Positions 3,279-20,622 are shown, numbered from the stretch's first letter. The stretch: 64,000 nucleotides of DNA from an uncultured bacterium (GCA_937924755.1 CALEVZ010000054.1:1-64000); one strand, 5' to 3'. The notes: a model not told the origin generated them from the letters alone. Program-made: numbers and translations.

Positions 3279-4037
3279 ATGCGCGCGTCCACCGAACCCC
3301 GCATTGCTCCCCTCACCCGCCGCCACCTGCTGAGCCTGGTGGGCGGGGTTGCCGCCGCCTCCGCCCTGGGTTCCTTTGTCCGCGGCGCCCGCGCCGCCAC
3401 CCCCACGCCGAGCCCCGCCGCCGCCCCCTTCGAGCTGGCGCCGCTGCCCTACGCGTTCGACGCCCTGGAACCGGTCATCGACGCCGAGACCATGCGCCTG
3501 CACCACGGCAAGCACCACGCCGGCTACGTGACCAACCTCAACGCCGCCCTCGACAAGGCGCCCGAGCTGAAAGGTCGCCCCCTGGAAAAGCTGCTCGCCG
3601 AGCTCTCCGCGGTGCCCGAGAGCGTGCGCACGGCGGTGCGCAACCACGGCGGCGGCCACGCCAACCACACCCTGTTCTGGCAGTGCCTCACCCCCGGCGG
3701 CGCCCCCCTCGCCGGCCCCCTGGCCGAGGCCATCAACGGCGTCTTCGGCAGCTTCGACGCCTTCAAGGAGGCGTTCACCCGGGCGGCCATGGGCGTGTTT
3801 GGCTCCGGCTGGGCCTGGCTGGTCCTCACGCAGGGCACGCTCGCCATCACCACCACGCCCAATCAGGACACGCCCCTCATGGCAGGGCAGGTGCCGCTGC
3901 TCGGCGTCGACGTGTGGGAGCATGCCTACTACCTGAAGTACCAGAACCGCCGCGCCGAGTACCTGGCCAACCTGTGGCGGGTGATCAACTGGCCCTTCGT
4001 GGCGAGACAATGGCAGGCGGCGCGGGTCGGCGCGTGA
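3279..4037 (+). CDS. sodA: Tat-exported superoxide dismutase, Mn-type signature
   Basis: This 252-residue protein disproportionates superoxide outside the cytoplasm. Residues 14-40 are a twin-arginine signal ([11 protein letters not shown], then a hydrophobic stretch ending in RGARAA). The mature enzyme has the N-terminal hairpin ([13 protein letters not shown], ligand His75, gateway Tyr83), the second ligand region [11 protein letters not shown] and the Asp/His ligands in [16 protein letters not shown] and TPNQDTPLM favour the Mn or cambialistic type over the Fe type. Of three clustered ATGs (3267, 3273, 3279) the last has GGAG six bases upstream and is used. Most cytosolic SODs lack a Tat leader, so export suggests protection of periplasmic metal centres. 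Confidence 0.92.
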
Positions 4038-4090
4038 GGATTCGCCGGGCGTCGGGCGCGGCGCGCAGCTGCGACTGATTCCAACTCGCC

Positions 4091-4118
4091 TTGACAACCG
4101 CGAAGCCGCACCTACACT
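4091..4118 (+). promoter_or_regulatory. sigma-70 promoter of the cyclase-kinase-TPR gene
   Basis: A perfect -35 TTGACA (4091-4096), 16-bp spacer and -10 TACACT (4113-4118, four of six consensus bases). Transcription would start near 4125, only about four bases before the ATG at 4129. The mRNA would therefore be essentially leaderless, and no SD precedes that ATG. Confidence 0.7.
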
Positions 4119-4128
4119 GACTTCGGAT

Positions 4129-7100
4129 ATGGGCGAAAAAGCTCCCCACAGCGAAGGGGCGGCCCGTGGCGCGCGGATCGCACGCCCGCATGCCGGCCCG
4201 GCCGCAGGCGGCGACAGTCCGCGGCCGACGGCGGAACCCGTAGCCACCCTGACGAGCCTGCTGGTCACCGATCTGGTGGATTCCACGGCGCTGGTGGACC
4301 GGTTGGGCGACGTCCGGGCGGCAGAGGTGTTCGCCCGGCACGACAGCGTGGCGCGCTTTCTTCTCGCCACCCACAGCGGGCGCGAAATCGACAAGAGCGA
4401 CGGTTTCCTGCTCCTCTTCGAGCGCCCGATCCACGCCCTCGCCTATGCCTTGGACTACCACGCCCAGTTACGCCACCTCGCCGAGGAGGAAGGCATCCCC
4501 CTGGCGGCACGGGTGGGTATCCACGTCGGCGAGGTGTTCATCCGCGAGAATCCCGCGGCGGACGTGGCCCGCGGGGCCAAACCCCTGGAGGTGGAGGGGC
4601 TCGCCAAGCTGGTGGCGTCGCGGGTGATGTCCCTGGCGCAAGGGGGACAGACCCTGCTCACCCGGGCGGCGTTCGATTTCACCCGCCGCGCCGCCGCCAC
4701 GTCGGAAACGGTGAGCGACCGACTGGTGTGGGTGGCGCACGGATTGTACCGCTTCAAAGGCGTCGAAGACGCCCTCGAGGTGTTCGAGGTGGGCGAGCCG
4801 GGGGTGGCCCCCCTGCGGCCGCCGCCGGGCAGCGACAAGGCCCGGCCGGTGGGCGGCGAAGACACGGTGTGGGGGTGGCGCCCCGCCGTCGGTCAGTCCC
4901 TTCCCGGACGGCCCCACTGGCGGCTGGAGCAGAAGCTGGGGGAGGGTGGCTTCGGGGAGGTCTGGCTCGCCCGCCACCGCAAGACCCGCGAGGGGCGGGT
5001 GTTCAAGTTTTGCTTCGGGAAAGAGCGCCTGCGCGCCCTGCAACGGGAGGTGACGCTGTGCCGTGTGCTGCGAGAGACCCTGGGTGACCGCCGGGACATC
5101 GCCCGCATCCTCGACTGGAACCTGGACGAACCACCCTACTACCTCGAGCTGGAGTACCAGGGCGGGCACACGCTTGGCGACTGGGCCGTCCGCCGGGGTG
5201 GCCTCGCCGCGGTCCCCACGCCCGTCCGCCTGGAACTGGCCGCCCAGATCGCCGACGCCGTGGCCGCCGCCCACTCCGTCGGCGTGCTGCACAAGGACAT
5301 CAAGCCCAGCAACATCCTGGTCGTAGAGGAAGCCGACGGCACGCCGCGCGTCCAGGTCACCGACTTCGGCATCGGCGCGTTGAGCGAAGCCGAGCGGGTC
5401 AACGCCTTGGGCATCACCATCCTCGGCATGACGGAATCCGAGCGGACCGGCTCCGGCACCACCACCGGCACGCGTCTCTACCTCGCCCCGGAGGTGCTGG
5501 AGGGCAAGCCCGTCACCACCCAGGCCGACGTGTACTCCCTCGGCATCGTGATCTATCAACTGTTGGTGGGCGACTTTTCGCGCGTGTTGGCGCCGGGGTG
5601 GGAGCGGGACGTCGACGATCCCATCCTGGCCGCCGACCTGAGCGCCTTTCTGGACGGGAGGCCGGAGCGACGCGTGGCCTCCGCCGCCGAGGTGGCGCAG
5701 CGCCTGCGCTCCCTCGAGACGCGGCGCGAGCTCGCCCGCGCTGCCGCTGCAGCCGCCGCCGAGGCGGAAGCCACCCGCCGGGCCCTGGAAAAGGCTCGCC
5801 GAAGGCGCCGCATCGCTGTCGCCGCGGCGGTGGTCGTCCTCGCCTTCGCGGTGGCCATGGCCGCACTCGCGCGCCGCATCGCCGCCGAGCGCGACCGGGC
5901 CAACCAGGAGGCCGCGGCCGCCCAGCGGGTCACCGATTTCCTGCTCAACCTCTTCCAGGTCTCCGACCCCTCCGAAGCGCGGGGCAACACCATCACCGCG
6001 CGGGAGCTCCTGGACAAGGGCGCAGCGCAGCTCGCAGAAGAACTGGGCGATCAACCGGTGCTGCGCGCCCGCCTGGCGGACGCCATCGGCACCGTGTACG
6101 TGCAGCTGGGCCTGCACCAGGAAGGTGAGCGCCTGTTGCACCAGGCCTGGGAGTTGCGGCGGCAACACCTGGGCGAGCTGCACGCGGACAGCGCCAACAG
6201 CCTGGGCGACCTCGGCTTCGTCGCCGAGAAGCGGGGCGATTACGCCGCGGCCGAACAGCACTACCGGCGCGCGCTGGACATCTACCGTTCCCTCGGGCGG
6301 GAGCATGAGACGGTCGTCGCCAAGGTGCACAGCTCCCTCGGCTGGGCACTGGCGGAACAAGCCCGCTGGCCGGAGGCGGAGGAGCAGGTTCGCACCGCCC
6401 TGGCGATACAGGAAAAGCTGGGAAGCGGCGCGGACGACATGGTGGCCGAATCGCTCACCACCCTCGCCTACCTCCACTTCAAACAGGGGAAGTACCGGGA
6501 CGCCGCCGAACTGTTGCGCCGCGTTTTGGCCATCCGCGAGCGCCTCCACGGGCCGGACTCGCTGCAGGCGGCGGCCGCCAAAAACAACCTGGCGGTGCAA
6601 CTGCGGGAAATCGGCGAGCTTGACCAGGCCCTCGCCTACTACCGGCAGGCCTTGGCGGTGCAGGAGCGCGCGCTGGGGCCCGACCATCCGGATCTGGGCA
6701 GCTTTTTCAACAACATCGCCCACATTCACCAGGACCGCGACGAGCTGCAACAGGCCGAACACTTCTTTCGACGGGCGCTCGCCGTCCGGCGCGCCGCGCT
6801 GGGCGAGGAACACCCCTTGACCGCGTCCTCTCTCAGCACCCTCTGTTACTGCCTGTGGCTGGGCGGGCAGCTGGACGAGGCAGAGGAGCTGTGCCGTCGC
6901 GCCCTCCAGGTCCGTGAACGGGTCCTCGGCCCGGACCACCCGGACGTCGCGTTCACGCGCTCCAACCTGGGGCTGATTTCCCTCGCCCGCGCCGACTACC
7001 CCGCGGCGCGCCGCCACTTCGAGGACGCCCTGCGGATCACCCAGACGGCCTTCGGCCAGGACCGCCCCGCGATGCTGCCCATCCTGGAGGGGTACGAGAC

Positions 7101-7230
7101 ACTCCTGCGGCACCTGCGGGAAACCGACTCCGCCGCCGCCCTGGCCGCGCGCATCGCCGCTGTGCGCCAGCACGCCGCGGCGCGGGGGGAACGCCTCCCC
7201 CCGCCGGTGCCCGTGCGCGCACCCCTCTGA
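4129..7230 (+). CDS. class III cyclase-like / Ser-Thr kinase / TPR membrane signalling protein
   Basis: This 1033-residue protein has three modules. Residues 40-200 are a class III nucleotide-cyclase homology domain with metal Asp48 (VTDLVDST) and Asp91 (KSDGF). The transition-state Asn position is Leu161, while Arg165 is kept, so cyclase activity is doubtful. Residues 265-530 are a Hanks-type kinase: GEGGFGEVWLA, Lys293, HKDIKPSN (HKD instead of HRD), Asp412 in TDFG, and LAPEV. It looks catalytically competent. An Ala/Glu/Arg-rich helix leads to one membrane segment (about 562-580). Residues 630-1000 are kinesin-light-chain-type TPRs (repeated ALGPDHPD-like ends), which would lie outside the cytoplasm. 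This order is known from Proteobacteria and Acidobacteria. No partner gene adjoins. Inferred role: transducing an envelope signal to phosphorylation. Confidence 0.88.
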   Translation: MGEKAPHSEGAARGARIARPHAGPAAGGDSPRPTAEPVATLTSLLVTDLVDSTALVDRLGDVRAAEVFARHDSVARFLLATHSGREIDKSDGFLLLFERPIHALAYALDYHAQLRHLAEEEGIPLAARVGIHVGEVFIRENPAADVARGAKPLEVEGLAKLVASRVMSLAQGGQTLLTRAAFDFTRRAAATSETVSDRLVWVAHGLYRFKGVEDALEVFEVGEPGVAPLRPPPGSDKARPVGGEDTVWGWRPAVGQSLPGRPHWRLEQKLGEGGFGEVWLARHRKTREGRVFKFCFGKERLRALQREVTLCRVLRETLGDRRDIARILDWNLDEPPYYLELEYQGGHTLGDWAVRRGGLAAVPTPVRLELAAQIADAVAAAHSVGVLHKDIKPSNILVVEEADGTPRVQVTDFGIGALSEAERVNALGITILGMTESERTGSGTTTGTRLYLAPEVLEGKPVTTQADVYSLGIVIYQLLVGDFSRVLAPGWERDVDDPILAADLSAFLDGRPERRVASAAEVAQRLRSLETRRELARAAAAAAAEAEATRRALEKARRRRRIAVAAAVVVLAFAVAMAALARRIAAERDRANQEAAAAQRVTDFLLNLFQVSDPSEARGNTITARELLDKGAAQLAEELGDQPVLRARLADAIGTVYVQLGLHQEGERLLHQAWELRRQHLGELHADSANSLGDLGFVAEKRGDYAAAEQHYRRALDIYRSLGREHETVVAKVHSSLGWALAEQARWPEAEEQVRTALAIQEKLGSGADDMVAESLTTLAYLHFKQGKYRDAAELLRRVLAIRERLHGPDSLQAAAAKNNLAVQLREIGELDQALAYYRQALAVQERALGPDHPDLGSFFNNIAHIHQDRDELQQAEHFFRRALAVRRAALGEEHPLTASSLSTLCYCLWLGGQLDEAEELCRRALQVRERVLGPDHPDVAFTRSNLGLISLARADYPAARRHFEDALRITQTAFGQDRPAMLPILEGYETLLRHLRETDSAAALAARIAAVRQHAAARGERLPPPVPVRAPL

Positions 7231-7531
7231 CGGCGCCTGGCAAGGCAAGGAGCGGGCGCTCATCCGCGGCTCCGGGTACGTGGTGAAAGACCTCAAAGCG
7301 GCGGTGTGCTGCTTCGCCACCAACGCCGATTTCGCCGGCGCCGTCCTCGCCGCCAATTTGGGTGACGACGCTGACACCACCGCGGCGGTGTACGGGCAGC
7401 AGGCCGGCGCCCACTACGGCGGCGCCGTCATCCCCCGTCACTGGCGGGAGACACCGGCGGTGGGGGATCTCATCGCCGACCTGGCCGACCGTCCGCTGGC
7501 CGGAGGAGCGGCCTGCTGCACGCCGGCATGA
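7229..7531 (+). pseudogene. C-terminal remnant of an ADP-ribosylglycohydrolase
   Basis: The frame encodes GSGYVVKDLKAA, a CFAT segment and then NLGDDADTTAAVYGQ with a following AGAHYGG. This matches the C-terminal metal-binding part of the ADP-ribosylglycohydrolase (DraG) family. About 200 N-terminal residues, including the first metal site, are absent, and the frame runs straight into the 3' end of the TPR gene with no start of its own. It is a truncated relic, so no enzyme is expected. Confidence 0.75.
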
Positions 7532-7579
7532 CCGGCGGGCAAAGAGAGCGGTGGACGCCGGCCAGCGGGGAATCCGCCT

Positions 7580-8268
7580 TTAAGGCAGGCGGCGCCGCTT
7601 GAGATGCACGGTGCCTGCCGTCTCCCCTCCGCGCTCCACCTCCAGGTAGCGCACCCAGCCGTCCTTCACCCGCACCACCCGGCGCCACGGTTGCTCCGAC
7701 CCTCCCTCTCCCAGGATCCACCACTTGAGAGCCCGCTGCGTGTCCACCCCGGGCTCGGGGATCGTCAAAAGGACTCCCCGTCCAGCACCACCGCCTTCCC
7801 CACCAGCCGGAAGCCCACATCGGCCGCGGCGGAGATCTCCCACCGGTACCGCAGCCCGTCGGGCGAGCCCACTACCCAGCTGCGACCCTGCTGCTCCCAC
7901 ACCGCCGTTCCGTCCACCGTGTCGACGAGACCCACCACCCGCGGCGGGGAGCCCAGCTCCACCTCCCGTAGGATCTCTCCGCTGTCAGGATCGAGCAGTG
8001 CGTCGCAGGTCGCGCCCGTCTTCCACGTTGCGCCCCCGCGGCTCCCCGCCGCACCGGCGCTTCGGCACCCATAGCCGAAACCCACCAGGCACGCGCGCTC
8101 GCTGCACACCGTCACCCCGGCCGAGAAGCCGCACTCGCCCCCCTTCCTTCTCGCCGCGGGCGGCGGCCTTCACGCGCTCCTGGCAGGGCAGGCGCACCCC
8201 CTGGGCGAACACCGCCGGGCCCGCCAGCAACGCCACGAGCACCACCGGAACGCCTGCCGCCGTTTCAC
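7580..8268 (-). pseudogene. frameshifted gene for a secreted protein of unknown function
   Basis: Three frames carry consecutive pieces of one protein. The GTG at 8268 begins M-K-R-R-Q-A. After a -1 shift near 8250 comes a signal-peptide core (VPVVLVALLAGPAVFAQ), then RLPCQERVKAAARGE. After an extra base in a run of six G (minus strand, near 8128) come CGFSAGVTVCSERACLVGF and a ~110-residue part with Trp and beta-type spacing. After one base lost in a T run near 7768 the protein continues TIPEPGVDTQRALKWWIL to the stop at 7580. The GTG overlaps the upstream stop (GTGA). All three shifts sit at or near short runs, so either true decay or assembly error is possible. I do not recognise the family. 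Confidence 0.6.
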
Positions 8269-8444
8269 CTGCCCTCGGCCGACCGCGGTACGCCCGCCGG
8301 GGCTTCCACCGGCTCGCCACCCCACCGCCGCGCGCCGGCCACGAGCCTTTGCACCGCCTCGTCGAGTGCCTCCCCCGGCACCGGCAGGCACGTGGGTTCT
8401 CCCTTTCCAGCCGGTGCGAACACGATAAGACAAGGCGCGCAGCC
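8265..8444 (-). other. coding-like segment in frame beyond a TGA; continuation of the Cys-rich protein
   Basis: Directly after the TGA at 8447-8445 the same frame stays open for 59 codons. It reads GCAPCLIVFAPAGKGEP, then CLPVPGEALDEAVQRLVAG, and ends SAEGR-stop with a GTGA overlap onto the next gene. Codon-like composition and the operonic overlap suggest that it was translated. It has no convincing start of its own. Either the upstream gene acquired a nonsense mutation, or the TGA is read through. Confidence 0.45.
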
Positions 8445-8645
8445 TCACCCCTCGCGCCCGCCGGAACCGGCGCGCATGCCCGAACAGCAGGACCCCCACC
8501 CGTCGCAGTACGGGGTGCCTTGCGGGGTGAAGGCACGCTCGCACTCGCACCAGCACGTACACCAGCCGCCCTCGGCCTCCCCCGCCGGGCCGAGGACCAG
8601 CGCGGCCACCAGCGCCGCAGACACCATCATCAGTTTTATGGCCAC
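8445..8645 (-). CDS. small secreted Cys-rich protein
   Basis: A 66-codon frame from a GTG (8645), or from the ATG at 8630 (61 residues), has a hydrophobic leader (MMVSAALVAALVLG, then PAGEAEGG). A short Cys-rich mature part follows: WCTCWCECERAF, then PYCDGWGSCCSG. The spacing C-x-C-x-C-x-C and the CC pair could bind a metal or form disulfides. GGAGG lies against the GTG and 14 bases before the ATG, so neither start is ideal. The frame continues past its stop in a coding-like way (see 8265-8444), and the next gene is frameshifted, so this may be the intact 5' part of a broken gene. Confidence 0.45.
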   Translation of the reverse strand: MAIKLMMVSAALVAALVLGPAGEAEGGWCTCWCECERAFTPQGTPYCDGWGSCCSGMRAGSGGREG

Positions 8646-8770
8646 CTCCGTGCCCGCTAACCTGAAAAAAAAGACAAGATGTCAAGGGGAGCGGCGGCCG
8701 CGGCTTTCGGGGACGAGCGGGCCGCTCGTGCAGACGATGGTGTCGGGGCGAGGCGAGCCGGCGAAGTGAC

Positions 8771-8809
8771 AAAAGCGGCGAGACCGCCGTGCAGCGCCGG
8801 TCTCGCCGC
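8771..8809 (-). terminator. rho-independent terminator of the porin-cytochrome-molybdoenzyme operon
   Basis: On the minus strand, a perfect 11-bp stem (GCGGCGAGACC pairing with GGTCTCGCCGC, arms 8809-8799 and 8785-8775) has a 13-base loop and is followed at once by TTTT (8774-8771). It lies about 65 bases past the stop of the porin gene. Confidence 0.8.
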
Positions 8810-8823
8810 GTGTCGGCCGGCCG

Positions 8824-8847
8824 GCGGCCCGGCTCACGCCGGGCCGC
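8824..8847. repeat. 10-bp inverted repeat just past the porin gene
   Basis: GCGGCCCGGC, loop TCAC, GCCGGGCCGC: a perfect GC-only hairpin between the porin stop (8875) and the terminator. It has no U tract and may protect the 3' end of the mRNA or assist termination. Confidence 0.5.
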
Positions 8848-8874
8848 AGCGGCCAGCGGGTGCGAGCGGGCGGA

Positions 8875-10956
8875 TCAGAAACTCCGGGAGTACCCTCCCG
8901 CCACGGCGTGGTAGCGGCCGTCCTTGGAAGCGTCAACCGAATCCTCGAAGCGATGGTAGCCGTACTGCAGGAAGGCGCGGCTGCGTCGGTCGATGCGGTA
9001 CTCGCCCAGCACCGCCGCCTGCCAGTACTGATTGTCGTGGGCCGAGAACTCCCGCACCGGCACCTTGGCCGAGACGATCCCCGCCTCCGCCTGAGTTAGG
9101 GCCAGGGAGGGGATCACCGTCACCCGACCGTTGATGGTGATGGTGGAGCCGACGGTGAGGTAGGTCGCCTCGCTCTCGTACCCGAAGGCCGGGTCGAACA
9201 CCTCGCCCGCCCAGCTCTCGCGCCAGCGGCGCACGTTGGCTAGCACCAGGTGGGAGTCCTGATCGCGACGGGTGTGCTGGAGGCCGCCGAAGAGCTGCCA
9301 GGTGGGCGCCAGGCCGTGCCAGCCGAACAGGGAGGCGGTGAGAGACTGGCTGTCCCACCGCTGGGCGGCATTCGAGGTGCGCCCGGAGAAGACGAACTGG
9401 CGGTTTTCCGAGTCCTCCCAGAGGACCGCCAGGGACAGGCCGGAGATCCCGTCCTTGCTGGTCACCCCGGCGGAGGCCCGCAGCCGCTGCAGGCGGGCAG
9501 GGTCGGCGGGGGACCAAGTGTGGTCGTTGGCCCGGTGCTCCCAGCGGGCGTTCCAGCGCACCTGGGAGGCGCCGCGCGAAGCTGCCGAAACCCACACGGT
9601 GCGCGGATCGGAGCGCTCCCCCCATCCCAACAGACCCACCGGGATGGCGTTGCTGCCGCGGCCGTAGATGAACTCCCGCTCGCTGTCCTCCCAGCGGGCG
9701 CCGCCCCGCAGCACGGCGTAGCGAGACAGGTAGCGGGCCGAGCCGCCGAACACCTGCGTTTCGGTCCTCTTCAAGAACGGGAACGAGAGGTTGCGATCGG
9801 CCAGCAGGAAGTGCCGGGGAGTGACGGCGGCGGAGGCCACCGGAGTGTCGTTGCGGCGGGTGCCCCAGCGGGAGAAGACCTCCACCGATACCGTGTCCTT
9901 GGCCTCCAGGTAAAGTGCCGCCCCGAGGGTGGAGAAGCGCAGCTTCCCCTCGTACACCTCGGCGGCCTGGAAGGGGGTGAGAGAGCGCTGCTCCAGCTGT
10001 GAGACGCCGCCGTCCAGCACCAGCGCCAGCCGCTCGTGCAGGCGCTGCTCCAGCACCGCCTCCAGGCCCTTGCCCTGGGAGTCGGCGATGAAGTTGATGG
10101 TGTTAGGGGAGGTATTGACGGAGGGTTCGAGACGGGCCACATCGGCGTTGGTGAACAGCGGCGCGCGGTTGTCGAAGCGGTCGCTCCACAGCCGCACCCA
10201 GGTGGTGTTGGGCTCCCCCAGAGAGAGCGTCGCCGCCGCCGAGAGGCGATCCACCCGCTGGTCGATCTCCTCGGCGCGCCCCCGCCAACGGGCCGGGTTG
10301 TTGCCGGCGGGTACCACCAAGTCTTCTACCACCCCGAAAATCCACATGAACTGCCGCTGCCCCGAGCGCCGGTGCAGGCCGGTTTCCACCTCCAGGGAGC
10401 GCAACCCCTCCCAGTGGGCAGAGACGGCGGCGGGCATGACCTTGAAGCCGACGGAAAGGTCTCGGCGACGGCGCCGGAGGTCGTCGCCGGGGAGGAAGTC
10501 GTCGTTGTAGCGCTGGGCGTAACTGATGGTGCCGGGTGCGGCCGCGGGCACGTACTTTTCGAAGGGCCGCTGGTAGTCACGCCAGCCAAAGTCAACACGC
10601 ACCCCGGCGCTGGGGCTCCAGCGCCCCTGCCAACGGTCGTTCAGGAGGAACTGGTTGTCGTGGTACAGCTCCAGGACGGGTGCCCCAGGTTGGCGGGCGT
10701 GAATGGCCAGGCCAAACTGGTCGAAGATTTCCAGGGCCCGGTCAAGGGCGCCCTCGTTGGCGGGGTCGAGGGAGCGGTAGCGCTCAACATACCCCTGATC
10801 GCCGCTGAAGGAGTACCCCTTGGGAGCCACCTGGAGGTAGCCTTCCACCTCGCCGGCGGCGGGAGCCGGATCGCTTTCCTCGGCGTACCCCCAGCCCACC
10901 GCCAGCGTCAGGGCGCAGGCAAGGACGCAAAGTCGGGTTCTCGTAATCGTGGTCAT
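8875..10956 (-). CDS. MtrB/PioB-like outer-membrane beta-barrel (porin of a porin-cytochrome conduit)
   Basis: This 693-residue protein has a Sec signal peptide (residues 1-25, ending GWGYAEE). A long run of alternating amphipathic strands follows, with charged turns and aromatic girdles (for example VRVDFGWRDYQRP and ARWEDSEREF). The last residues, GGYSRSF, end in Phe, the usual barrel-insertion signal. Size and neighbour fit MtrB/PioB, which sheaths a decahaem cytochrome across the outer membrane. The Shewanella N-terminal CxxC is not present. The gene starts 18 bases after the decahaem gene, with GGAGGGAG as SD. It is the last gene of the operon and is followed by a strong terminator. The family call rests on context plus barrel character, not on a diagnostic motif. 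Confidence 0.72.
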   Translation of the reverse strand: MTTITRTRLCVLACALTLAVGWGYAEESDPAPAAGEVEGYLQVAPKGYSFSGDQGYVERYRSLDPANEGALDRALEIFDQFGLAIHARQPGAPVLELYHDNQFLLNDRWQGRWSPSAGVRVDFGWRDYQRPFEKYVPAAAPGTISYAQRYNDDFLPGDDLRRRRRDLSVGFKVMPAAVSAHWEGLRSLEVETGLHRRSGQRQFMWIFGVVEDLVVPAGNNPARWRGRAEEIDQRVDRLSAAATLSLGEPNTTWVRLWSDRFDNRAPLFTNADVARLEPSVNTSPNTINFIADSQGKGLEAVLEQRLHERLALVLDGGVSQLEQRSLTPFQAAEVYEGKLRFSTLGAALYLEAKDTVSVEVFSRWGTRRNDTPVASAAVTPRHFLLADRNLSFPFLKRTETQVFGGSARYLSRYAVLRGGARWEDSEREFIYGRGSNAIPVGLLGWGERSDPRTVWVSAASRGASQVRWNARWEHRANDHTWSPADPARLQRLRASAGVTSKDGISGLSLAVLWEDSENRQFVFSGRTSNAAQRWDSQSLTASLFGWHGLAPTWQLFGGLQHTRRDQDSHLVLANVRRWRESWAGEVFDPAFGYESEATYLTVGSTITINGRVTVIPSLALTQAEAGIVSAKVPVREFSAHDNQYWQAAVLGEYRIDRRSRAFLQYGYHRFEDSVDASKDGRYHAVAGGYSRSF

Positions 10957-10974
10957 GGCCGCTTCTCCCTCCCC

Positions 10975-11895
10975 TCACTTCTTCAGGTGGCGATCGCCGT
11001 GGGAGCCGTGCACGGCGCCGTGACAGGTGGTGCAACGCTGGTAGATGGCGCGGGAAAAGCGCGTGCCGCCAATCTCCTGGCCGTGCCGGTCATCGGGCAG
11101 GACGTGGCAGGACAGGCACAAGAACGGCTCGGCGGTGCGCAGCAGGGAAGGCGCCACGGAGCCGTGGGGCTCGTGGCAGGAAGTGCAGTCCTCCGCCACC
11201 GGGGCGTGCTCGAAGGCCCAGGGACCACGCTTGTCCTCGTGGCAGGAGAGGCACTGATTCCTGGTGGACGCGTACGTGGCCCCGTTGAGGTGGGGGTTGT
11301 GGCAGGAGGAACAGGAGATGGCACCTTCGGCAACCGGGTGGCGGAACGGCATGGCCAGGCTGCCGCGCAGCTGGGGGTGGCAGGATAGGCACAGCTCGTC
11401 CCGGTCCCCCTTGAGGTGCCGCCCTACCACCGGCGCCCCCTCGCGCTGGGAGTTCACGCGAGCGCGCACCAGCTGCACCGGCGCGGGGGCGTGGGGACTT
11501 GCGTGACAGGCGGTGCAGGCCAGCCCCGAGCGACCGTGGGTGGCGCGCAGGAACGGCGAAACCGTTTGATTGTCGCGGTGGCACGTGAGGCAGGCGCGCG
11601 CGCCTTCGCCCTCCTTCCCCGCGGCAAAAGTGATGAGCCCGCCCAGCTGCGAGGGATCCTCGGCATGAGCGGCGGCGGGGCCGTGGCACGACTCGCAGCC
11701 AGCCACCCCGGCGCGGGTGCGCACCAGCGACCCGGCGTGGACGTTGCGTTCGAAGTGCGGGAAAAGGTCGGCGTGACAGTCACGGCACGCCTCACTGCCG
11801 GCGTACCCCGCGGCACGATCAGCGCCGTCCCCGGCGGCGGCCGTCCCGGCCACCACCAGGGCTGTGGTCATGAGGGGAATTATCAAGGTTCGCAT
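10975..11895 (-). CDS. DmsE/MtrA-type decahaem c cytochrome
   Basis: This 306-residue periplasmic cytochrome has a signal peptide (MRTLIIPLMTTALVV, then AGTAAAG) and exactly ten CxxCH motifs: CRDCH, CESCH, CLTCH, CTACH, CLSCH, CSSCH, CLSCH, CTSCH, CLSCH and CTTCH. Length, haem number and the tail segment CTSCHEPHGSVAPSLL match the DmsE/MtrA family, which sits inside an MtrB-type barrel and moves electrons across the outer membrane. SD GAGGAGGG precedes the ATG at 11895. It lies 38 bases after the molybdoenzyme gene and 18 before the porin gene, so one transcript is likely. Haem attachment needs a Ccm system, which is not in this window. Confidence 0.93.
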   Translation of the reverse strand: MRTLIIPLMTTALVVAGTAAAGDGADRAAGYAGSEACRDCHADLFPHFERNVHAGSLVRTRAGVAGCESCHGPAAAHAEDPSQLGGLITFAAGKEGEGARACLTCHRDNQTVSPFLRATHGRSGLACTACHASPHAPAPVQLVRARVNSQREGAPVVGRHLKGDRDELCLSCHPQLRGSLAMPFRHPVAEGAISCSSCHNPHLNGATYASTRNQCLSCHEDKRGPWAFEHAPVAEDCTSCHEPHGSVAPSLLRTAEPFLCLSCHVLPDDRHGQEIGGTRFSRAIYQRCTTCHGAVHGSHGDRHLKK

Positions 11896-11933
11896 GGCCT
11901 TCAGCCCTCCTCGCGTGTTGCCTCGCCGCCCCC

Positions 11934-14900
11934 TCATACCGGGACGAGCCTCACCTTGGTGTCGTAAAAGACGGCACTGCCACCGATGACATCCGACAGG
12001 GTGGTGTTGCCCAGGTGGTCGTCGAGGCGCATGGCGGCGTTGGCATGGACACCGGCTGAGCGGCGCCGGTCGCCCTTGACCACCACACCGTCGACGATCT
12101 GGTCGTTGGCACCGTACGCCCAATGGCCGTACCCCAGCACGAAGTTGACCACCCCGGGGCGGATCTTCTCGGTCACCTTGAGAGCCCCGACGATGGGGAT
12201 CTTGGTGCCGTTGGCGAGATCCCATTCGCCGGCCGGGTTGGTCGCGCAGGTGATCTTGACCTTCTGGCCGTTGCGTAACCCCAGGCGCGTCGCGTCCTGC
12301 GGGTGAATCTCGATCTCGTTGAACGGTTTGCGGTCCAAGAGCCAATAGTTGGAAACCGTGCGGCTTTTGGTCATCAGCATGGTGCGGGAGGTGATGAGGT
12401 ACAGGTCGAACCCGGTGTCGGCGATCGGGCGCCCCAACGCGTCGGCGATCGGCACATATCCGGGCAATGGGCGCATTCCCTTGCCGGTCATTGAGTTCTT
12501 GAGGGTCGCCGGCTTTTCCTGGTAGAGGTTGACGAGCTTGCCGTACTTGGCCTTGGTCTGGCCCGTCGAGGTCCAGGCCTCGTCGTAGCTCCACCAGCGG
12601 CCGCCGCGGTTGAGGACGTAGACGACCTTGCGCCACCAGGCGTCCCCCACCGCCGCCCGCCACTTGTCGGCGTCGAACACCGAGGGCGGCAAGTGCCGCC
12701 GCGCCGCCAGGAAGATCCGCAACTCCTCGTCGTCGGCGTCGGGGCACACGTCGGTCCCCGCCGAAGAATCCCCGAAGGCCACGTTGGCCACCATCTTGAG
12801 GTAGAAATCCTCGGGGCGCTTGAGCTGCCGGCCGGGGCCGAAGCCATCGCTGCCCCACCCCGGCATGCCCATGTATTCCGCCAGGGCCATGAACACCGAC
12901 TCCATGGAGATGGGCATGGGCTCGCCGAAAACCTCGACGGTCTCGGGGATGGGCGGGATGGCCGGCTGCCGCACCGGCGAGACGCGGTGCACGATGGAGG
13001 GGTGGGTGCGGTGGAACTCCCAGCGCTCGAGATACGTCAGGTCTGGGAAGATGTAGTCGGCGTACAGGGAGTGCTCGGAAATGACGATGTCCGAGCTGAT
13101 GAACAGGGGAATTTTGGCGGGATTCGCGAGGATGGGGATGAGGGCATGGCCGGCCGGCAAGGCGTACACCGGCGCTCCCATGTACAAAATCAGCGCCTTG
13201 ATCGGGTAGGGGTAGGCGTCGCCGCAGGAGGGGATGACCTCCTGGTACACGTCGCTGGCCAGGGGGTACCAGGGGCGCTTGGCGGGATAGCCGGAGAAAA
13301 TAGTGCTCTCCTCGTACACCGCGCCGCCGCGGATGATGTCAAGACCGAACCCGGTGAGCTTCTTGGGGTGGGCGCTGAGAGAAAACGGCCGACCAGTGCC
13401 GCCGGTCTCGCCGTACGAGCCCGCCCCGTAGACCAGGCCCCCTTTCCAGTCCAGGTTGCCGATCAGCAGGTTCAGCGTGTACACCGCCAGGACGCTGTAG
13501 AAGCCGTTGGTGTGCTGGGACACGCCGCGGTGTAGCTCGGCCACCGCCCTCTTGCCGTGGGAGGTGAACTCCCGTGCGAGTTCCACGACGTCCGTGGTCA
13601 TCACCTCGGCCAGTGCCGCCCACTGGTCCAGGCTGCGCGCCATCGCCTCCTCGCGCACCAGTTGCATGGCCGACTTGACGCGCACGCCGCCCACCGTGGT
13701 GTCCACGAACAGGTCCCCCTCGGCGGGGTTGGCCGCGTCGTCGGACTTAAACGCCACCGGCTCGCCGTTTCGCAAGCAGACAAAGGTATCGGCGTCACCC
13801 CCTAAGCCAATCTCCGAAGCCCGCAGAAACTTGCCCGGGGTGCCGTCGGAGGAGATCTTCACGAGCCACGCTCCATTCGACCAGGTGGGCTCGTTGTCGG
13901 CGGCGGCCGCGGCTTTGTTGGCGTTTTCCAGGTAGCGGCGGTCGAAACGGTTGTTCTCGAGGATCCAGCGGATCATCCCCATGGCCAGAGCGGCGTCGGT
14001 CCCCGGCTTGATGGGGATCCACTTCCACGCCTTGGCGGCGGCGGGGTTGAAGCGCGGGTCCACGACGGCGATCTTCAGTCGGCCGGAGGTGAGCCCGCGG
14101 GTGATCTTGGGCACCTTCAACGGCGGCCCGTAGTTCCCCTCCAAGACGTTGGCTCCCCAGAAGATGACGAACTCGGCGTGCGACAGGTCACCCATCCAGT
14201 AGGCCTTGGCGCCGCCGCTCCACTTGCCCCCCGACGGCTGGTCCGACATCGACTTGCCGGCGAAGTAGATCGAACCCTGACAGACGGTAGTGTGACCGTG
14301 GCCGTTGACCGAGCCGAAGGTGTCCCGCCAGAAACGGGCGAAAAAGTCGCTGCGCCCGGCCTTGAGGCGGCCCCAGTTGAACACCAGCTGGTTGTTCTTG
14401 GGGCCGAAGTCGGGGTGATCGGGGTCGATGAGAACGTCGAGATGATCCGCCCACTTGGTCTTGAACTCGTCCACCGTCATGGTCTTCTTGCGGATCAAGG
14501 CGACGTCGGCGGCCATCGCCGTGGCGAGGGCAGGGTCACGAAGGGCCCAGATGTCCTTCAAGCCCTCCACCCAACGGTTCTCCTCGCCCGGGACGTGGGA
14601 GAAGAGGTAACCGCCGTCGGCGATCTCCTTGATGGCCTGATGGAAGGGAATGGTCGTCCACTTCCCCTCGCCGCGCTTTCCCGCCCGCTTCAACACCTTG
14701 GCGAGGCGGTAGGGGTCGTACGCGCTTTGCAGCCCCGACTGACCTTTCGGGCAGGTGTAGCCCTGCACGGGCGCCGCAGCCGCCGCCGGGGTAGTCCACG
14801 GGATGTGGGGATCCATCGTGCGGGGGGCGTAGGGGTTGCCCTCGATCTTCACCACCACCCCCTCCTGGACGCGGACCTTGATTTCGCAGCCGGTGTTGCA

Positions 14901-15092
14901 CTGCAGGCAGGTGGTGTAGATGTAGTTCTCCGGCCGCGCGGTATCCGACTCCCGCAAGGTCGCCGCGGCCTCGAGATCTCCTCCGCCGCCGAGCATTCCC
15001 GCCGCCGCGCCGCCCAGAAAGGCGCCGCTTGCCAGCAGCTCCCGTCGGCTCAAGCCTTCATGCTCTCGCCTCGTGCTCTCACATTCGCTCAT
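11934..15092 (-). CDS. molybdopterin oxidoreductase catalytic subunit (TtrA/ArrA/SrdA-like clade), substrate unknown
   Basis: This 1052-residue protein belongs to the DMSO-reductase superfamily. It has a Tat signal (SRRELLASGAFLGG, residues 15-28) and an N-terminal [4Fe-4S] site at Cys62, Cys65, Cys69 and Cys114 (CLQCNTGC, then CPKG). Cys271 in HTTVCQGS is the likely Mo ligand. The C-terminal dinucleotide-binding part has FNEIEIHPQDATRLGLRNG and VLGYGHWAYGANDQ. The length is near tetrathionate reductase TtrA and longer than most arsenate reductases (~850). I favour a TtrA/ArrA/SrdA-like reductase for an oxyanion or sulfur compound, without choosing a substrate. ATG 15092 is preferred over GTG 15098 because GGAGGGAG is then correctly spaced. 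It follows the Fe-S subunit by 18 bases and precedes the decahaem gene, unlike classical operons with a NrfD-type anchor. Confidence 0.88.
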   Translation of the reverse strand: MSECESTRREHEGLSRRELLASGAFLGGAAAGMLGGGGDLEAAATLRESDTARPENYIYTTCLQCNTGCEIKVRVQEGVVVKIEGNPYAPRTMDPHIPWTTPAAAAAPVQGYTCPKGQSGLQSAYDPYRLAKVLKRAGKRGEGKWTTIPFHQAIKEIADGGYLFSHVPGEENRWVEGLKDIWALRDPALATAMAADVALIRKKTMTVDEFKTKWADHLDVLIDPDHPDFGPKNNQLVFNWGRLKAGRSDFFARFWRDTFGSVNGHGHTTVCQGSIYFAGKSMSDQPSGGKWSGGAKAYWMGDLSHAEFVIFWGANVLEGNYGPPLKVPKITRGLTSGRLKIAVVDPRFNPAAAKAWKWIPIKPGTDAALAMGMIRWILENNRFDRRYLENANKAAAAADNEPTWSNGAWLVKISSDGTPGKFLRASEIGLGGDADTFVCLRNGEPVAFKSDDAANPAEGDLFVDTTVGGVRVKSAMQLVREEAMARSLDQWAALAEVMTTDVVELAREFTSHGKRAVAELHRGVSQHTNGFYSVLAVYTLNLLIGNLDWKGGLVYGAGSYGETGGTGRPFSLSAHPKKLTGFGLDIIRGGAVYEESTIFSGYPAKRPWYPLASDVYQEVIPSCGDAYPYPIKALILYMGAPVYALPAGHALIPILANPAKIPLFISSDIVISEHSLYADYIFPDLTYLERWEFHRTHPSIVHRVSPVRQPAIPPIPETVEVFGEPMPISMESVFMALAEYMGMPGWGSDGFGPGRQLKRPEDFYLKMVANVAFGDSSAGTDVCPDADDEELRIFLAARRHLPPSVFDADKWRAAVGDAWWRKVVYVLNRGGRWWSYDEAWTSTGQTKAKYGKLVNLYQEKPATLKNSMTGKGMRPLPGYVPIADALGRPIADTGFDLYLITSRTMLMTKSRTVSNYWLLDRKPFNEIEIHPQDATRLGLRNGQKVKITCATNPAGEWDLANGTKIPIVGALKVTEKIRPGVVNFVLGYGHWAYGANDQIVDGVVVKGDRRRSAGVHANAAMRLDDHLGNTTLSDVIGGSAVFYDTKVRLVPV

Positions 15093-15110
15093 GGCCACTC
15101 CCTCCTCAGC

Positions 15111-16037
15111 TCAGTGGCACGTGGCGCAGGCGTACCCTGGCACGCCCTGCAACCCGTCTTCGACGTAGTACACCCGTGGTTCGATGCCCGCCTCCTCGTG
15201 GATGCGGATGCTGCGCTGGGTGCGCAGCAGCTCGCTCACCGTGCTCGCCGGGTCGGCCAAATCGCCGAAGTACATGGCGTTGCTGATGCAGGAGGTGACG
15301 CAGGCGGGCAGCACTCCACCCTCCACGCGGTGCAGGCAGAAGTGGCACTTGCGCGCCGCTCCCACCGGCGTGCCGCCGGCGTTGCGATTCATGACATTTT
15401 GATACTCGACGAAGGAGCGCCGCTCGTAGGCCTGCACGGCGGGCGTTCCATCGGTGAAGAACTTGCCGTCGTCGATGTGCACCGCCCGGTACGGGCAGGC
15501 CTTGGCCGCCGCCTCGGCGTACCGTCCCTTGAGCTGGGTGTAGTCGAACTCCACGATGCCGTCCGGGCGCTTGGTGATCATGCCCGCCGGCACCGCCCGC
15601 TGGCAGGGCGGATCGTCGCACTGGACGCAGTTGGTGGGCATGAAGACGTTGGTGAGATTGGGAAAACGTCCCGCCGGCGCCTCCGGCACCCGCCGGTACG
15701 AGCCGGCCGGCCCGGTGACGTTCTCGGCCCGGCAGGCGATTACGCACGCCTGGCAGCCGATGCACGCGCGGGTGTCGACCACCATCACCCATCTTCGTTT
15801 CGACAGCGGCTTGGCGAGCGCCTGATGCAGCTCCTGCTGCATCGCCACCAGCCGGTTGCCGGGCACCACCGGCAGGGCCGTTCCCGCGGCGCCGCCGCGG
15901 GAGGTGGGAACGCGGCGGGCCACCGTACCGCCAAACACCCACCCCGCCACCGAGGCCGCCCCGGCCGCCAGCAGGCCCACCACCCCGCGCCGCGACGGTT
16001 TGTCCTGGACGGACTGCATCACCTCTTCGTCGTGCAT
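15111..16037 (-). CDS. Fe-S electron-transfer subunit with a C-terminal CxxCH haem motif
   Basis: This 308-residue DmsB/TtrB/NrfC-like partner of the molybdoenzyme has a Tat-like leader (SRRGVVGLLAAG, residues 15-26) and then ferredoxin repeats. Repeat I is CIGCQACVIAC (92, 95, 98, 102). Repeat II is Cys137, 140 and 145, with Val149 at the fourth position. Repeat III keeps only Cys181 (CPYRA). Repeat IV is Cys231, 234, 246 and 250. By the family pairing rule this leaves three complete [4Fe-4S] sites and removes the fourth as a unit. The last five residues are CATCH, a haem c motif at the very C-terminus. ATG 16037 is chosen because a strong promoter lies upstream and the leader then starts correctly. 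It is the first gene of the operon. Confidence 0.88.
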   Translation of the reverse strand: MHDEEVMQSVQDKPSRRGVVGLLAAGAASVAGWVFGGTVARRVPTSRGGAAGTALPVVPGNRLVAMQQELHQALAKPLSKRRWVMVVDTRACIGCQACVIACRAENVTGPAGSYRRVPEAPAGRFPNLTNVFMPTNCVQCDDPPCQRAVPAGMITKRPDGIVEFDYTQLKGRYAEAAAKACPYRAVHIDDGKFFTDGTPAVQAYERRSFVEYQNVMNRNAGGTPVGAARKCHFCLHRVEGGVLPACVTSCISNAMYFGDLADPASTVSELLRTQRSIRIHEEAGIEPRVYYVEDGLQGVPGYACATCH

Positions 16038-16121: not shown

Positions 16122-16149
16122 ATTATAATTCACTTACCATGGATTTCAA
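16122..16149 (-). promoter_or_regulatory. sigma-70 promoter of the Fe-S/molybdoenzyme/decahaem/porin operon
   Basis: On the minus strand, -35 TTGAAA (16149-16144, five of six), 16-bp spacer and -10 TATAAT (16127-16122, six of six). The predicted start is near 16115, giving a leader of about 78 bases before the ATG at 16037. It is the most AT-rich spot in this part of the window. Confidence 0.72.
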
Positions 16150-16378: not shown

Positions 16379-17557
16379 TCAGCCGGCCAGCGCTCCGAAG
16401 GCGAGCCCGGAGACGGTCGCCATCACCACCACCAGGGCGCAGTAGGCGACGGTTTTCTTCGCTCCCAGGTAGGAGTTGATCACCAACATGTTGGGCAGCG
16501 ACAACGCCGGGCCGGCGAGCAGCAGGGCCAACGCCGGACCCTTGCCCATGCCGGCGCCGATCAGAGTCTGCAGGATCGGCACTTCGGTCAAGGTGGCGAA
16601 GTACATGAACGCCCCCACCACCGAGGCGAGCAGGTTGGCGGTAAAGGAATTGCCACCCACCACCGCCGCCACCCAACTGGCCGGGATGAGCCCGGCATCC
16701 TGCCCCGGCCGTCCCAACAGCCAGCCGGACACCAGCACGCCGGCGAACAGCAGCGGGAAGATCTGCTTGGCAAAACCCCAGCTGGACTCAACCCAGCTCC
16801 CGAGCTCCGCCTTGTCGTACCAACGCCACATCATCCCCGCCAGAGCGACGCCGAAAACCGCGACCAGCGGCCAGTGGAGGCGCCAGATCAGAGCAAACAG
16901 CCCCACCTCGCGGTTGGGCGTGCCCCAGTTGGCGAACACCAGGATGGCGATCATCGTCGCCACAAACGCCCCATCCTGCCACCCGGCGCGGCCGCCGGCG
17001 ACGGCCTGGTACGCGAAGGGGTCGGGCCCGGCGGCCTGGCGCTCCGCCTCGTCGCGACGGAAAAGCACCGCCATGGCGAGGCCGATGACCACTGCGAAGA
17101 GCACCGCCCCCACCGCCCGTGCCACCCCCAGCTCCAGCCCCAGGACCCGGGCGGTGAGGATGATGGCCAGCACGTTGATCGCCGGGCCCGAGTACAGGAA
17201 GGCCGTCGCCGGACCGAGGCCCGCTCCGCGCTTGTAAATCCCTGCAAACAAAGGCAACACGGTGCACGAACACACCGCCAGGATCGACCCCGACAGCGAG
17301 GCCACGCCGTAGGCCACGGCACGCGGTGCGCTCGCACCCAGATAACGCAGCACCGCCCCCTGGCTGACGAACACGCCGATCGCCCCGGCGATGAAAAACG
17401 CCGGCACCAGGCACAGCAGCACGTGCTGGCGGGCGTAGTCTTTGAGCAGGAACAACCCTTCCAAAAAAGCCTGCTGCACCCGCCCGTGCTCGATGGGCAG
17501 AAAATAGGCGACGGCAAAAACCCCGGCGATGAGTGCAAGCTTCGTTTTCTCGTTCAC
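16379..17557 (-). CDS. ArsP/DUF318-type permease
   Basis: This 392-residue inner-membrane protein has about ten hydrophobic segments. The signature CSCTVLPLFAGIYKRGAGLG is followed by FLYSGPAINVLAI, and it recurs in inverted form near the end as FTANLLASVVGAFMYFATLTE and LAGPALSLPNMLVI. This is the DUF318/ArsP permease family, whose characterised members export organoarsenicals and which are often paired with a small CxxC thioredoxin, as here (41 bases upstream). The GTG at 17557 has a G-rich SD. It is the last gene of the trx-ccdA-trx-permease operon. The arsenic substrate is inferred from family and from arsC nearby. Confidence 0.82.
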   Translation of the reverse strand: MNEKTKLALIAGVFAVAYFLPIEHGRVQQAFLEGLFLLKDYARQHVLLCLVPAFFIAGAIGVFVSQGAVLRYLGASAPRAVAYGVASLSGSILAVCSCTVLPLFAGIYKRGAGLGPATAFLYSGPAINVLAIILTARVLGLELGVARAVGAVLFAVVIGLAMAVLFRRDEAERQAAGPDPFAYQAVAGGRAGWQDGAFVATMIAILVFANWGTPNREVGLFALIWRLHWPLVAVFGVALAGMMWRWYDKAELGSWVESSWGFAKQIFPLLFAGVLVSGWLLGRPGQDAGLIPASWVAAVVGGNSFTANLLASVVGAFMYFATLTEVPILQTLIGAGMGKGPALALLLAGPALSLPNMLVINSYLGAKKTVAYCALVVVMATVSGLAFGALAG

Positions 17558-17598: not shown

Positions 17599-17847
17599 CT
17601 ACCTGAGGCCGAGAACGGCCCGCACCTCGTCAGGCTTGGGAATCCGCCCGAACAGCGCCACCTTGCCGTCGACGGCCACCCCGGGCGTCGCCATCAGGCC
17701 CAGCTCGACCATCCGGTCGATGGATTCGTTCTTGATCACCTGGCAGGAGAGGCCGGCTTCCGCCACCACCTTGCTCACCACCTCGAAGGTCGCCTTGCAG
17801 CGGGGACACCCGGGGCCCAGCACCTCGATCACCTTCACCTCGCTCAT
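17599..17847 (-). CDS. small thioredoxin-fold protein (MTH895/TM0996 type)
   Basis: This 82-residue cytoplasmic protein has the redox centre GPGCPRCKATFE near the N-terminus and a cis-Pro segment (ATPGVAVDGKVA), followed by FGRIPKPDEV. It belongs to the small redox-active-disulfide family seen beside DUF318 permeases, where it probably reduces the permease or its substrate. SD AGGAGG stands seven bases before the ATG. It lies 28 bases after the CcdA-like gene. Confidence 0.87.
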   Translation of the reverse strand: MSEVKVIEVLGPGCPRCKATFEVVSKVVAEAGLSCQVIKNESIDRMVELGLMATPGVAVDGKVALFGRIPKPDEVRAVLGLR

Positions 17848-17875: not shown

Positions 17876-18583
17876 TCACTGCATCCCGAAGGCGCCGCGC
17901 AGCACCGGAACCAACACCCACACTCCGGCCACCACCAGCACGACGCCGAAAGCGCGGTGCAGTCGCTCGCCCCAGCGCCCCGCCCGGCCGCTGACGAACG
18001 CCGCCGCGAACCCGCTCACCGCGCCGGCCGCAAACAGCAGCACCACGTGACCCAACGAGTACGCGGCGAGCAACGTGGTGCCCCACAACACCTGCTTCTC
18101 GAACGCCACAAGAGAAAGCACCACCACCAGAATGGGGGTGGCGCACGGCGACGAAAGGGTGCCGGTCATGGCGCCGAGGGCGAAGGCCCCCGCCACCCCT
18201 GCACCCTTAAGCCGTGCGCCGCTCACGCTGGGCAAAGGCAGCCGGAGCAGGCCGGCGAGATGCGCTCCCATCACCAGCAACACCACCCCTAACGCCACCG
18301 TCCAGGCCGGGCCCACATCGCCGATCAGCCGCCCGGTCACCGCCGCCAGGGCCCCGAGCGCGGTGAAGCACACCGCCAGACCCAGCACGAAGGCGGTGGT
18401 CAGAACCACGGCGCGGCGGCGGCTGCTGCTGGCGCCGCCCACCGTGGCCACGATCAGTGGCACCGCAGCCAGCACGCACGGACTCGCCGACGAGATGACC
18501 CCGCCCACAAACACCAAACCCAACGTGACGAGCGGCGGCGCGGCGCTCACCCGCTCGGCCAGAGAGATCAAGAGCTCCTGCAC
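17876..18583 (-). CDS. CcdA/DsbD-like transmembrane thiol-reductant transporter
   Basis: This 235-residue, about six-helix inner-membrane protein has two Pro-Cys motifs in equivalent helices (SSASPCVLAAVP and LSSPCATPILVV), the redox pair of CcdA. It passes electrons from cytoplasmic thioredoxin to periplasmic thiol proteins. The GTG start overlaps the upstream thioredoxin stop by one base (TAGTG), so the two are coupled. The exported thioredoxin just upstream is the obvious partner. Such pairs serve cytochrome c maturation or reductive resistance pathways. Confidence 0.87.
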   Translation of the reverse strand: MQELLISLAERVSAAPPLVTLGLVFVGGVISSASPCVLAAVPLIVATVGGASSSRRRAVVLTTAFVLGLAVCFTALGALAAVTGRLIGDVGPAWTVALGVVLLVMGAHLAGLLRLPLPSVSGARLKGAGVAGAFALGAMTGTLSSPCATPILVVVLSLVAFEKQVLWGTTLLAAYSLGHVVLLFAAGAVSGFAAAFVSGRAGRWGERLHRAFGVVLVVAGVWVLVPVLRGAFGMQ

Positions 18584-18999
18584 TATTTAAGGCCCTTTTG
18601 AGCCAGCGCCGCCGCGAACTCCTCCAAAGGGTAAAAGCCCATGTGGCGCAACACTTCCTGGCCGCGAGGGTCAAACACCACCTGGGTGGGCATCACCATG
18701 ATCCTGTGCGCCCGTGCCACCGCAGGGTACTTCTGAATCCAGAAGTTACGGATCACCACCTTGTCCCCGAGCTTGGCCTGCAGGGCCTGCAAGGTCGGCT
18801 GCATCGCCTTGCACGGGATGCAGTGCTCGCCGCCGAACTCGATGATAGTCCACTTGCCGTCGGTCAGCAGCTGCGCCAGCTCCTCCGGGGTCGCCGCGGG
18901 GATGGCTTCGACCTCCCTCGCCCCCACCTCCTGCCGGCCGACCAGCATCAACCCCAGCATGAGAACCAGCACCACCCCCGCCGTCTTCATCCCTGCCAT
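18583..18999 (-). CDS. exported thioredoxin-fold protein
   Basis: This 138-residue protein has an N-terminal signal or anchor (VVLVLMLGLMLVG, then RQEVGA) and a thioredoxin domain with active site GGEHCIPCKAMQP and cis-Pro in IMVMPTQVVFD. It is expected to face the periplasm and to be recycled by the CcdA-like protein encoded immediately downstream. The ATG at 18999 has GGGGG five bases upstream, and an alternative ATG lies three codons later. It is the first gene behind a strong promoter. Confidence 0.88.
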   Translation of the reverse strand: MAGMKTAGVVLVLMLGLMLVGRQEVGAREVEAIPAATPEELAQLLTDGKWTIIEFGGEHCIPCKAMQPTLQALQAKLGDKVVIRNFWIQKYPAVARAHRIMVMPTQVVFDPRGQEVLRHMGFYPLEEFAAALAQKGLK

Positions 19000-20193: not shown

Positions 20194-20622
20194 ATGCGCA
20201 AGCGAGTCCTGATCCTGTGCACCGGCAACTCGTGCCGGTCGCAGATGGCCGAAGGGTGGGTCAACTACCTCTTGCACGACTCCTGGGAAGCGCACTCGGC
20301 GGGGACGCGGCCGGCGGCGGCGGTGCATCCCCTCGCCGTCCGGGTCATGGCGGAGGTCGGCGTGGATATCTCCAACGGTGTCCCCAAGGTGGTGGAAGGC
20401 TTCCTGGGAGAGGAGTGGGACCTGGTGGTCACCGTGTGCGACGCGGCCAAGGAGTCGTGCCCGATCTTCCCCCGGCCGGTGGAAGCGGTGCACATTTCGT
20501 TCCCGGACCCGGCCGCTGCTGAGGGCGGCGAGGAGCAGCGTCTCGCCGTTTTCCGCGCCGTGCGGGACGATATCCGCGCGCGGCTGGTGCCCTTCCTCGC
20601 CGGGCGCTCCAGCGGCGCGTGA
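20194..20622 (+). CDS. arsC: ArsC arsenate reductase, low-MW phosphatase (thioredoxin) type
   Basis: This 142-residue cytoplasmic enzyme reduces arsenate to arsenite. The P-loop LCTGNSCRSQMAEG contains the catalytic CX5R. The second redox Cys is in VVTVCDAAKESCP, and a FPDPAA segment supplies the general acid Asp. The Cys pair marks the thioredoxin-coupled subfamily rather than a plain phosphatase. A G-rich SD (AGGGGGGAGC) precedes the ATG. Thioredoxin-fold proteins and a DUF318 permease are encoded nearby, and no arsR was found in the window. Confidence 0.9.
   Translation: MRKRVLILCTGNSCRSQMAEGWVNYLLHDSWEAHSAGTRPAAAVHPLAVRVMAEVGVDISNGVPKVVEGFLGEEWDLVVTVCDAAKESCPIFPRPVEAVHISFPDPAAAEGGEEQRLAVFRAVRDDIRARLVPFLAGRSSGA

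Follow-up and report, generated by a model that had tools for sequence, protein, structure and literature searches.

A molybdoenzyme operon from an Acidobacteriota bacterium with a haem c motif in place of an Fe-S cluster and a decahaem/barrel gene pair

The iron-sulphur (Fe-S) subunit of a molybdoenzyme encoded by a bacterium of the phylum Acidobacteriota ends in a haem c motif. One cluster ligand set and the quinone-binding NrfD anchor are gone, and a putative c-haem site is present instead. The stretch of DNA analysed here (hereafter the window, 64,000 nucleotides; GCA_937924755.1 CALEVZ010000054.1:1-64000) carries the corresponding genes in a minus-strand operon at 8875-16037 that encodes, in this order, the Fe-S subunit, a molybdopterin subunit, a decahaem cytochrome and a barrel protein (Table 1). 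The initial annotation of the window overlooked that the Fe-S subunit has lost a cluster and bears a haem motif at its C terminus; with this haem-for-cluster exchange, the finding is stronger than described there. We favour, at a probability of roughly 45%, a model in which the operon would encode a haem-tailed terminal reductase of an arsenic oxyanion, placed at or just outside the outer membrane on a decahaem/barrel wire, like DmsEFAB of Shewanella.

Table 1 Features of the operon and of the genes beside it in the window
Feature	Position	Strand	Remark
Outer-membrane barrel, MtrB/PioB-like (candidate), 693 aa, C-terminal Phe	8875..10956	-	ortholog profile
Decahaem c-type cytochrome, DmsE/MtrA family	10975..11895	-	10 CxxCH; TIGR03508 198.1 bits, cut-off 192.2
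Molybdopterin catalytic subunit, 1052 aa, Tat signal (RR), N-terminal [4Fe-4S] cysteines, Cys Mo ligand	11934..15092	-	TtrA/SrdA clade (predicted)
Fe-S subunit, RR (Tat-like) N-terminus, 12 cluster cysteines versus the usual 16	15111..16037	-	308 aa
Haem c motif CATCH, immediately 5' of the stop codon of the Fe-S gene	15114..15128	-	C-terminal
Promoter-like site TTGAAA-16-TATAAT, 5' side of the operon	16122..16149	-	11/12 match
ArsP_1 permease	16379..17557	-	PF03773, 248.5 bits
MTH895/ArsE-family thioredoxin-like protein	17599..17847	-	68% identical to one in the G050 cluster
DsbD-type membrane protein	17876..18583	-	beside the operon
Exported thioredoxin	18583..18999	-	beside the operon
arsC, thioredoxin-coupled arsenate reductase family	20194..20622	+	TIGR02691 137.5 bits, below cut-off 174.3

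The haem tail of the Fe-S subunit

The 12 cluster cysteines of the window Fe-S subunit correspond to three [4Fe-4S] clusters. Four positions (181, 201, 206 and 209 of the window ORF), namely the final cysteine of motif II and the three leading ones of motif III, lack cysteine in the window protein and in 21/21 other aligned tail-type subunits. Following the pairing that is usual for ferredoxin motifs, the four cysteines bind one [4Fe-4S] cluster. The best solved relatives, ArrB (6cz7_B) and PsrB (2vpw_B), keep them, and 16 cysteines are found in 41/41 relatives with an NrfD-type Fe-S subunit. A C-terminal CxxCH is present in 21/21 other tail-type subunits versus 0/41 NrfD-type relatives, and its residues C304, C307 and H308 (numbering of the 308-residue window protein) are invariant across 23 sequences.

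The comparison covered 72 loci with an assignable Fe-S gene, namely the window and those obtained in a single scan of 84,980 species genomes. NrfD without a tail was observed at 41 loci, a tail without NrfD within 4 kb at 22, neither at nine and both at none. Hence, NrfD lies within 4 kb at 0/22 tail-type loci versus 41/50 tail-less ones (Fisher 1e-11, uncorrected for kinship); the identity of the NrfD neighbour was confirmed in Thermus with Pfam PF03916. The window subunit fits the haem-tailed group, with its C-terminal CxxCH, the loss of four cluster cysteines and no NrfD nearby. A TtrC-like, NrfD-type anchor was looked for on the window's contig and not found, and the four NrfD genes of the host genome are all on other contigs, in agreement with the absence noted in the initial annotation.

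The predicted model of the Fe-S subunit has a fold that matches those of ArrB and PsrB. The pLDDT of the haem tail is below 50, hence no haem-to-cluster distance can be derived. Judging from the sequence, we infer that the tail haem would actually be bound and carry electrons. A literature search, conducted largely outside subscription papers, returned no paper on a haem-tailed Fe-S subunit, no arsenate reductase with an MtrAB-type conduit and no biochemistry for any haem-tailed member; this missing biochemistry counts against the favoured model.

The haem-tailed swap is seen in about seven phyla, tail-type enzymes being also found in NC10, Kryptonia/Ignavibacteria/Bacteroidetes and WOR-3. In the catalytic-subunit tree, the window and two other genomes, G050 and G009, form a clade with 100% support. 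Its sister group is Bryobacteraceae, HR10 and a planctomycete lie close by, and all of these are of tail type. At least four tail switches are required by this tree. The Fe-S tree, computed with the trait columns left out, places all tail types, together with one Bipolaricaulota locus (L028), on one side of a branch supported at 100/98. Repeated invention of the tail is not claimed, given that the Fe-S tree groups the tail types and that the four independent pairs are too few for a test. A single origin of the tail with exchange of partners, or a tree error, is possible.

Two loci show other arrangements. The Fe-S subunit of L028 (1-807) is devoid of the same four cysteines, ends in CKSQHP instead of CxxCH and has no NrfD nearby; it may be a transitional form, a decayed haem site or a sequence error. 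In Carboxydocella thermautotrophica (L038, 13134-14896), a four-cluster Fe-S subunit without NrfD is followed by a small four-haem cytochrome and by a NapC/NirT-type cytochrome with 16 CxxCH, which is a third way of replacing the anchor.

The operon, its catalytic subunit and the decahaem/barrel pair

The four open reading frames are present as initially annotated and, because their spacers measure 18, 38 and 18 nt, are read as one operon. Of the promoter and terminator that had been assigned to it, the former is backed by a promoter-like site whose 11/12 match is the sole one in 10 kb (0.6 expected), and the latter is not retained, with six terminator-like sites seen versus 5.5 expected from shuffles. 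A search for the identical four-gene order elsewhere yielded two further genomes, G050 and G009 (split over two contig ends in the latter). The order is thus common to three genera and two families. The compared sequences belong to draft genomes, most of them metagenome-assembled, and the catalytic gene of G050 carries an in-frame TAG at a conserved tyrosine (L137, 8272-8274), reflecting either a sequencing error or a broken gene; both points count against the favoured model.

The catalytic subunit had been described as TtrA/ArrA/SrdA-like. TtrA is by far its best model (466.5 bits), followed by PhsA (184), DmsA (147.3) and ArrA (101.9), and the subunit scores far below every curated equivalog cut-off (TtrA 1750, DmsA 777.7 and ArrA 1600 bits). 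The Mo-ligand column contains Cys in 89/89 aligned relatives; this ligand is found in the TtrA/SrdA, ArxA/ArrA and PsrA/PhsA group, with Ser in DmsA (PMC10100899). By profile scores, the subunit is nearest to TtrA among known families, and with its Cys ligand it is predicted to belong to the TtrA/SrdA/alternative arsenate reductase clade.

The decahaem cytochrome is, as first proposed, of the DmsE/MtrA type, with its ten CxxCH and a score above the DmsE-family cut-off. For the outer-membrane barrel, the length and the C-terminal Phe agree with the earlier description, and the family evidence is at the edge. The window protein itself gave no family match, its G050 ortholog barely exceeds the cut-off of Pfam MtrB_PioB (PF11854; 23.3 bits versus 23), and a profile of the three orthologs aligns with Acidobacteriota MtrB/PioB proteins over 565 columns (hhalign, E 1.2e-4, probability 55.6). 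A PDB search with the barrel profile gave no match, and AlphaFold, run on the single sequence without alignment, gave a pLDDT of 30, uninformative either way. Overall, a diverged MtrB/PioB-type barrel is supported but not proved, and the weak assignment in the window protein itself counts against the favoured model. A strand-periodicity score was set aside for its poor separation (z 1.6 for the barrel, 1.1 to 6.0 for known MtrB, 0.6 and 1.4 for molybdoenzyme controls).

Among the genomes found, decahaem and barrel follow the enzyme genes only in the window, G050 and G009. A search for the barrel across 149 genomes of the class and 396 genomes of the phylum gave no convincing match beyond these three. 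In the nearest tail-type relatives (Bryobacteraceae and others), the enzyme is the same but neither decahaem nor barrel accompanies it. Because of this restricted linkage, the conduit looks like a late addition to an already cytochrome-coupled enzyme.

The operon resembles Shewanella DmsEFAB (DMSO/iodate reductase), an extracellular molybdoenzyme with a decahaem/barrel conduit in its operon (PMC11302344), in that one operon combines a DmsE-family decahaem, a putative MtrB-like barrel, Fe-S and molybdopterin subunits and no NrfD-type anchor. Unlike DmsEFAB, it has a TtrA-type catalytic subunit (DmsA model 147 of 777.7 bits) with Cys rather than Ser as Mo ligand, an Fe-S subunit with three clusters and a haem c site, and the gene order Fe-S, Mo, decahaem, barrel. 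The catalytic clade, the Cys Mo ligand and the arsenic gene context are shared with TtrABC, SrdBCA and the alternative arsenate reductase of Pyrobaculum and Melioribacter, whereas the haem tail, three clusters, decahaem and barrel contrast with the NrfD-type quinone subunit and four-cluster Fe-S subunit usual in the TtrABC-type family. ArrAB is a two-subunit enzyme fed electrons by the cytochrome CymA. The present enzyme likewise has two subunits and would take electrons from a cytochrome, and its Fe-S subunit has ArrB as best solved relative; however, the ArrA score is 102 of 1600 bits, the ArrB equivalog score is 124.3 versus 450 bits required, and ArrB, which is tail-less, retains all 16 cysteines. 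A decahaem paired with a barrel, here a putative one, is shared with MtrAB, PioAB and MtoAB, but here the conduit would be coupled to a molybdoenzyme and the barrel stands at the edge of PF11854. Overall, the operon would work like DmsEFAB, yet by the tests run it is a member of neither DmsEFAB, TtrABC nor ArrAB.

Several other loci are worth recording. A second arrangement within the same class (L112 of G006, 4163-10909, and L113 of G024, 547-7598) consists of a decahaem, a 630-680 aa protein that ends in Phe in both genomes and has no Pfam match, a trihaem cytochrome, a TtrA-type molybdoenzyme (about 40% identical) and a tail-less Fe-S subunit; it is probably another conduit-linked molybdoenzyme. 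In another Acidobacteriota bacterium, a seven-haem cytochrome gene lies directly downstream of a tail-type enzyme (L090, 13156-14109). The host genome also encodes NapC/NirT-type cytochromes, and just past the window end (contig C54, 66550-66693, L146) a paired CXXCH match lies within an open frame of 963 aa, a further multihaem candidate. Elsewhere in the window, positions 37317-40901 encode a B12-binding domain, a MeaB GTPase and a methylmalonyl-CoA mutase fused in one protein (IcmF-like), and positions 4129-7230 a protein kinase domain followed by many TPR repeats, whose N-terminal region looks, by eye only, like nucleotide cyclase domains.

Electron route and location of the enzyme

In the favoured model, electrons would be exchanged between the Mo site and a c-type cytochrome through the [4Fe-4S] clusters and the tail haem. 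In the host and the two relatives, this partner would be the decahaem, seated in the outer-membrane barrel as DmsE is in DmsF, so that the outer membrane would separate the enzyme from its electron source or sink. On the model of DmsEFAB, the enzyme would lie at or just outside this membrane and would reduce the arsenic oxyanion with electrons coming from the inner membrane via the decahaem. The wiring to a decahaem/barrel pair, which the initial annotation had drawn from DmsEFAB, is sustained by the single operon and by its conservation in three genomes. The step from the missing NrfD to an extracellular enzyme is not. Coupling to cytochrome c through the haem tail is the first explanation of the absence, which by itself does not imply an extracellular enzyme; moreover, tail-type relatives exist without a conduit.

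That the nearest tail-type relatives work without a conduit counts against the favoured model, as does the absence from the catalytic subunit of a lipobox or any secretion sign beyond Tat, together with a search for GspD in its own genome that gave nothing above cut-off. In view of the conduit-free relatives and the missing lipobox, a periplasmic enzyme that exchanges electrons with an external partner is a serious rival. The conduit would then work as in PioAB or MtoAB, bringing electrons from external donors such as Fe(II), partner cells or minerals to an arsenate or oxyanion reductase in the periplasm. This is consistent with the Fe-S subunits of the conduit-free relatives, which mostly have Tat signals with AxA-like sites and no lipobox, with the outer-membrane porin gene adjoining the Kryptonia and Bacteroidetes members (Porin_O_P 26.3 bits; 18 bits, sub-threshold), and with an operon in which no MtrC-like surface cytochrome was found. 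However, nothing in the operon suggests an external donor, and the studied case of a molybdoenzyme sharing an operon with such a conduit, DmsEFAB, is located outside the cell (PMC11302344); we regard a periplasmic reductase as unlikely.

The outer-membrane porin-like genes beside tail-type enzymes are L032 4368-5369 (Porin_O_P, 26.3 bits), L039 945-1997 (18 bits, sub-threshold) and L042 7616-8800 (no match). A phosphate-type porin beside a tail-type enzyme would suit arsenate.

Arsenic genes and the substrate

The arsC gene and the ArsP-like permease that had been reported next to the operon were both found (Table 1). In G050, ArsP, TrxE, a DsbD-like gene, ACR3 and ArsC lie directly upstream on the same strand. 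Within 238 kb of flank, arsC occurs at four other Acidobacteriota tail-type loci; the background density, 45 genes in 230 Mb, would give 0.047. Relatives on plasmids of Citrobacter and Pseudomonas adjoin ars genes or an ArsR-family regulator gene, and 9/44 NrfD-type relatives have ars neighbours. In Melioribacter roseus, the TtrA-type gene adjoins an arsPCB operon and its transcript is up with arsenate, less clearly than in Pyrobaculum aerophilum, whose TtrA is induced by As(V) (PMC5492636). Because of this gene context and the published arsenate induction of TtrA-type genes, an arsenic oxyanion (arsenate or arsenite) would be the leading candidate substrate. Hence, the initial range of arsenate, selenate, tetrathionate or another compound is narrowed towards arsenic.

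The M. roseus authors favour their Psr/Phs-type enzyme, not TtrA, as main arsenate reductase (PMC5492636), which counts against the favoured model. No core ars gene is present in the examined flank of 18/23 tail-type loci, and an arsenic substrate is therefore tentative. In addition, ars genes are common passengers of genomic islands, a further point against the model. A cell-surface arsenate reductase on the decahaem wire, respiring arsenate, possibly mineral-bound, outside the cell, is somewhat unlikely.

With the same layout, the enzyme could also act on a substrate such as tetrathionate, selenate or a different oxyanion, with the ars genes as mere neighbours, as suggested by a clade that contains TtrA and SrdA (PMC10100899) and by the majority of tail-type loci, which show no core ars gene in the examined flank. 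The arsC enrichment and the gene order in G050 argue against such a substrate, which we hold to be rather unlikely.

The enzyme could instead be an oxidase, in which periplasmic oxidation of arsenite or another donor would feed the tail haem, c-type cytochromes and then either the decahaem outward or a terminal oxidase. A quinone anchor lost and a haem gained is a layout also known from cytochrome-c-coupled dehydrogenases; the host genome has two haem-copper oxidase family genes, and the arsenic gene context gives no direction. However, those clade members that have been characterised are reductases (PMC10100899) and TtrA-type genes are induced by arsenate (PMC5492636), which renders an oxidase quite improbable. 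Finally, that decahaem and barrel form an independent metal-reduction conduit merely downstream of the enzyme genes, as the linkage in three genomes only and a catalytic clade older than this linkage could suggest, is highly improbable, since 18-38 nt separate the genes, three genera from two families share the order, and the barrels are still linked after diverging to 43-45% identity.

Overall, the exchange described here is a clean modular swap in respiratory molybdoenzymes, of a [4Fe-4S] cluster and a quinone anchor for a c-haem site expected to couple with cytochromes. The CxxCH tail together with the missing cluster provides a marker for cytochrome-coupled enzymes now labelled tetrathionate reductase or DsrO. 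One lineage joined the haem-tailed enzyme to an outer-membrane electron conduit beside arsenic genes, and its operon is a testable candidate for extracellular arsenic respiration.
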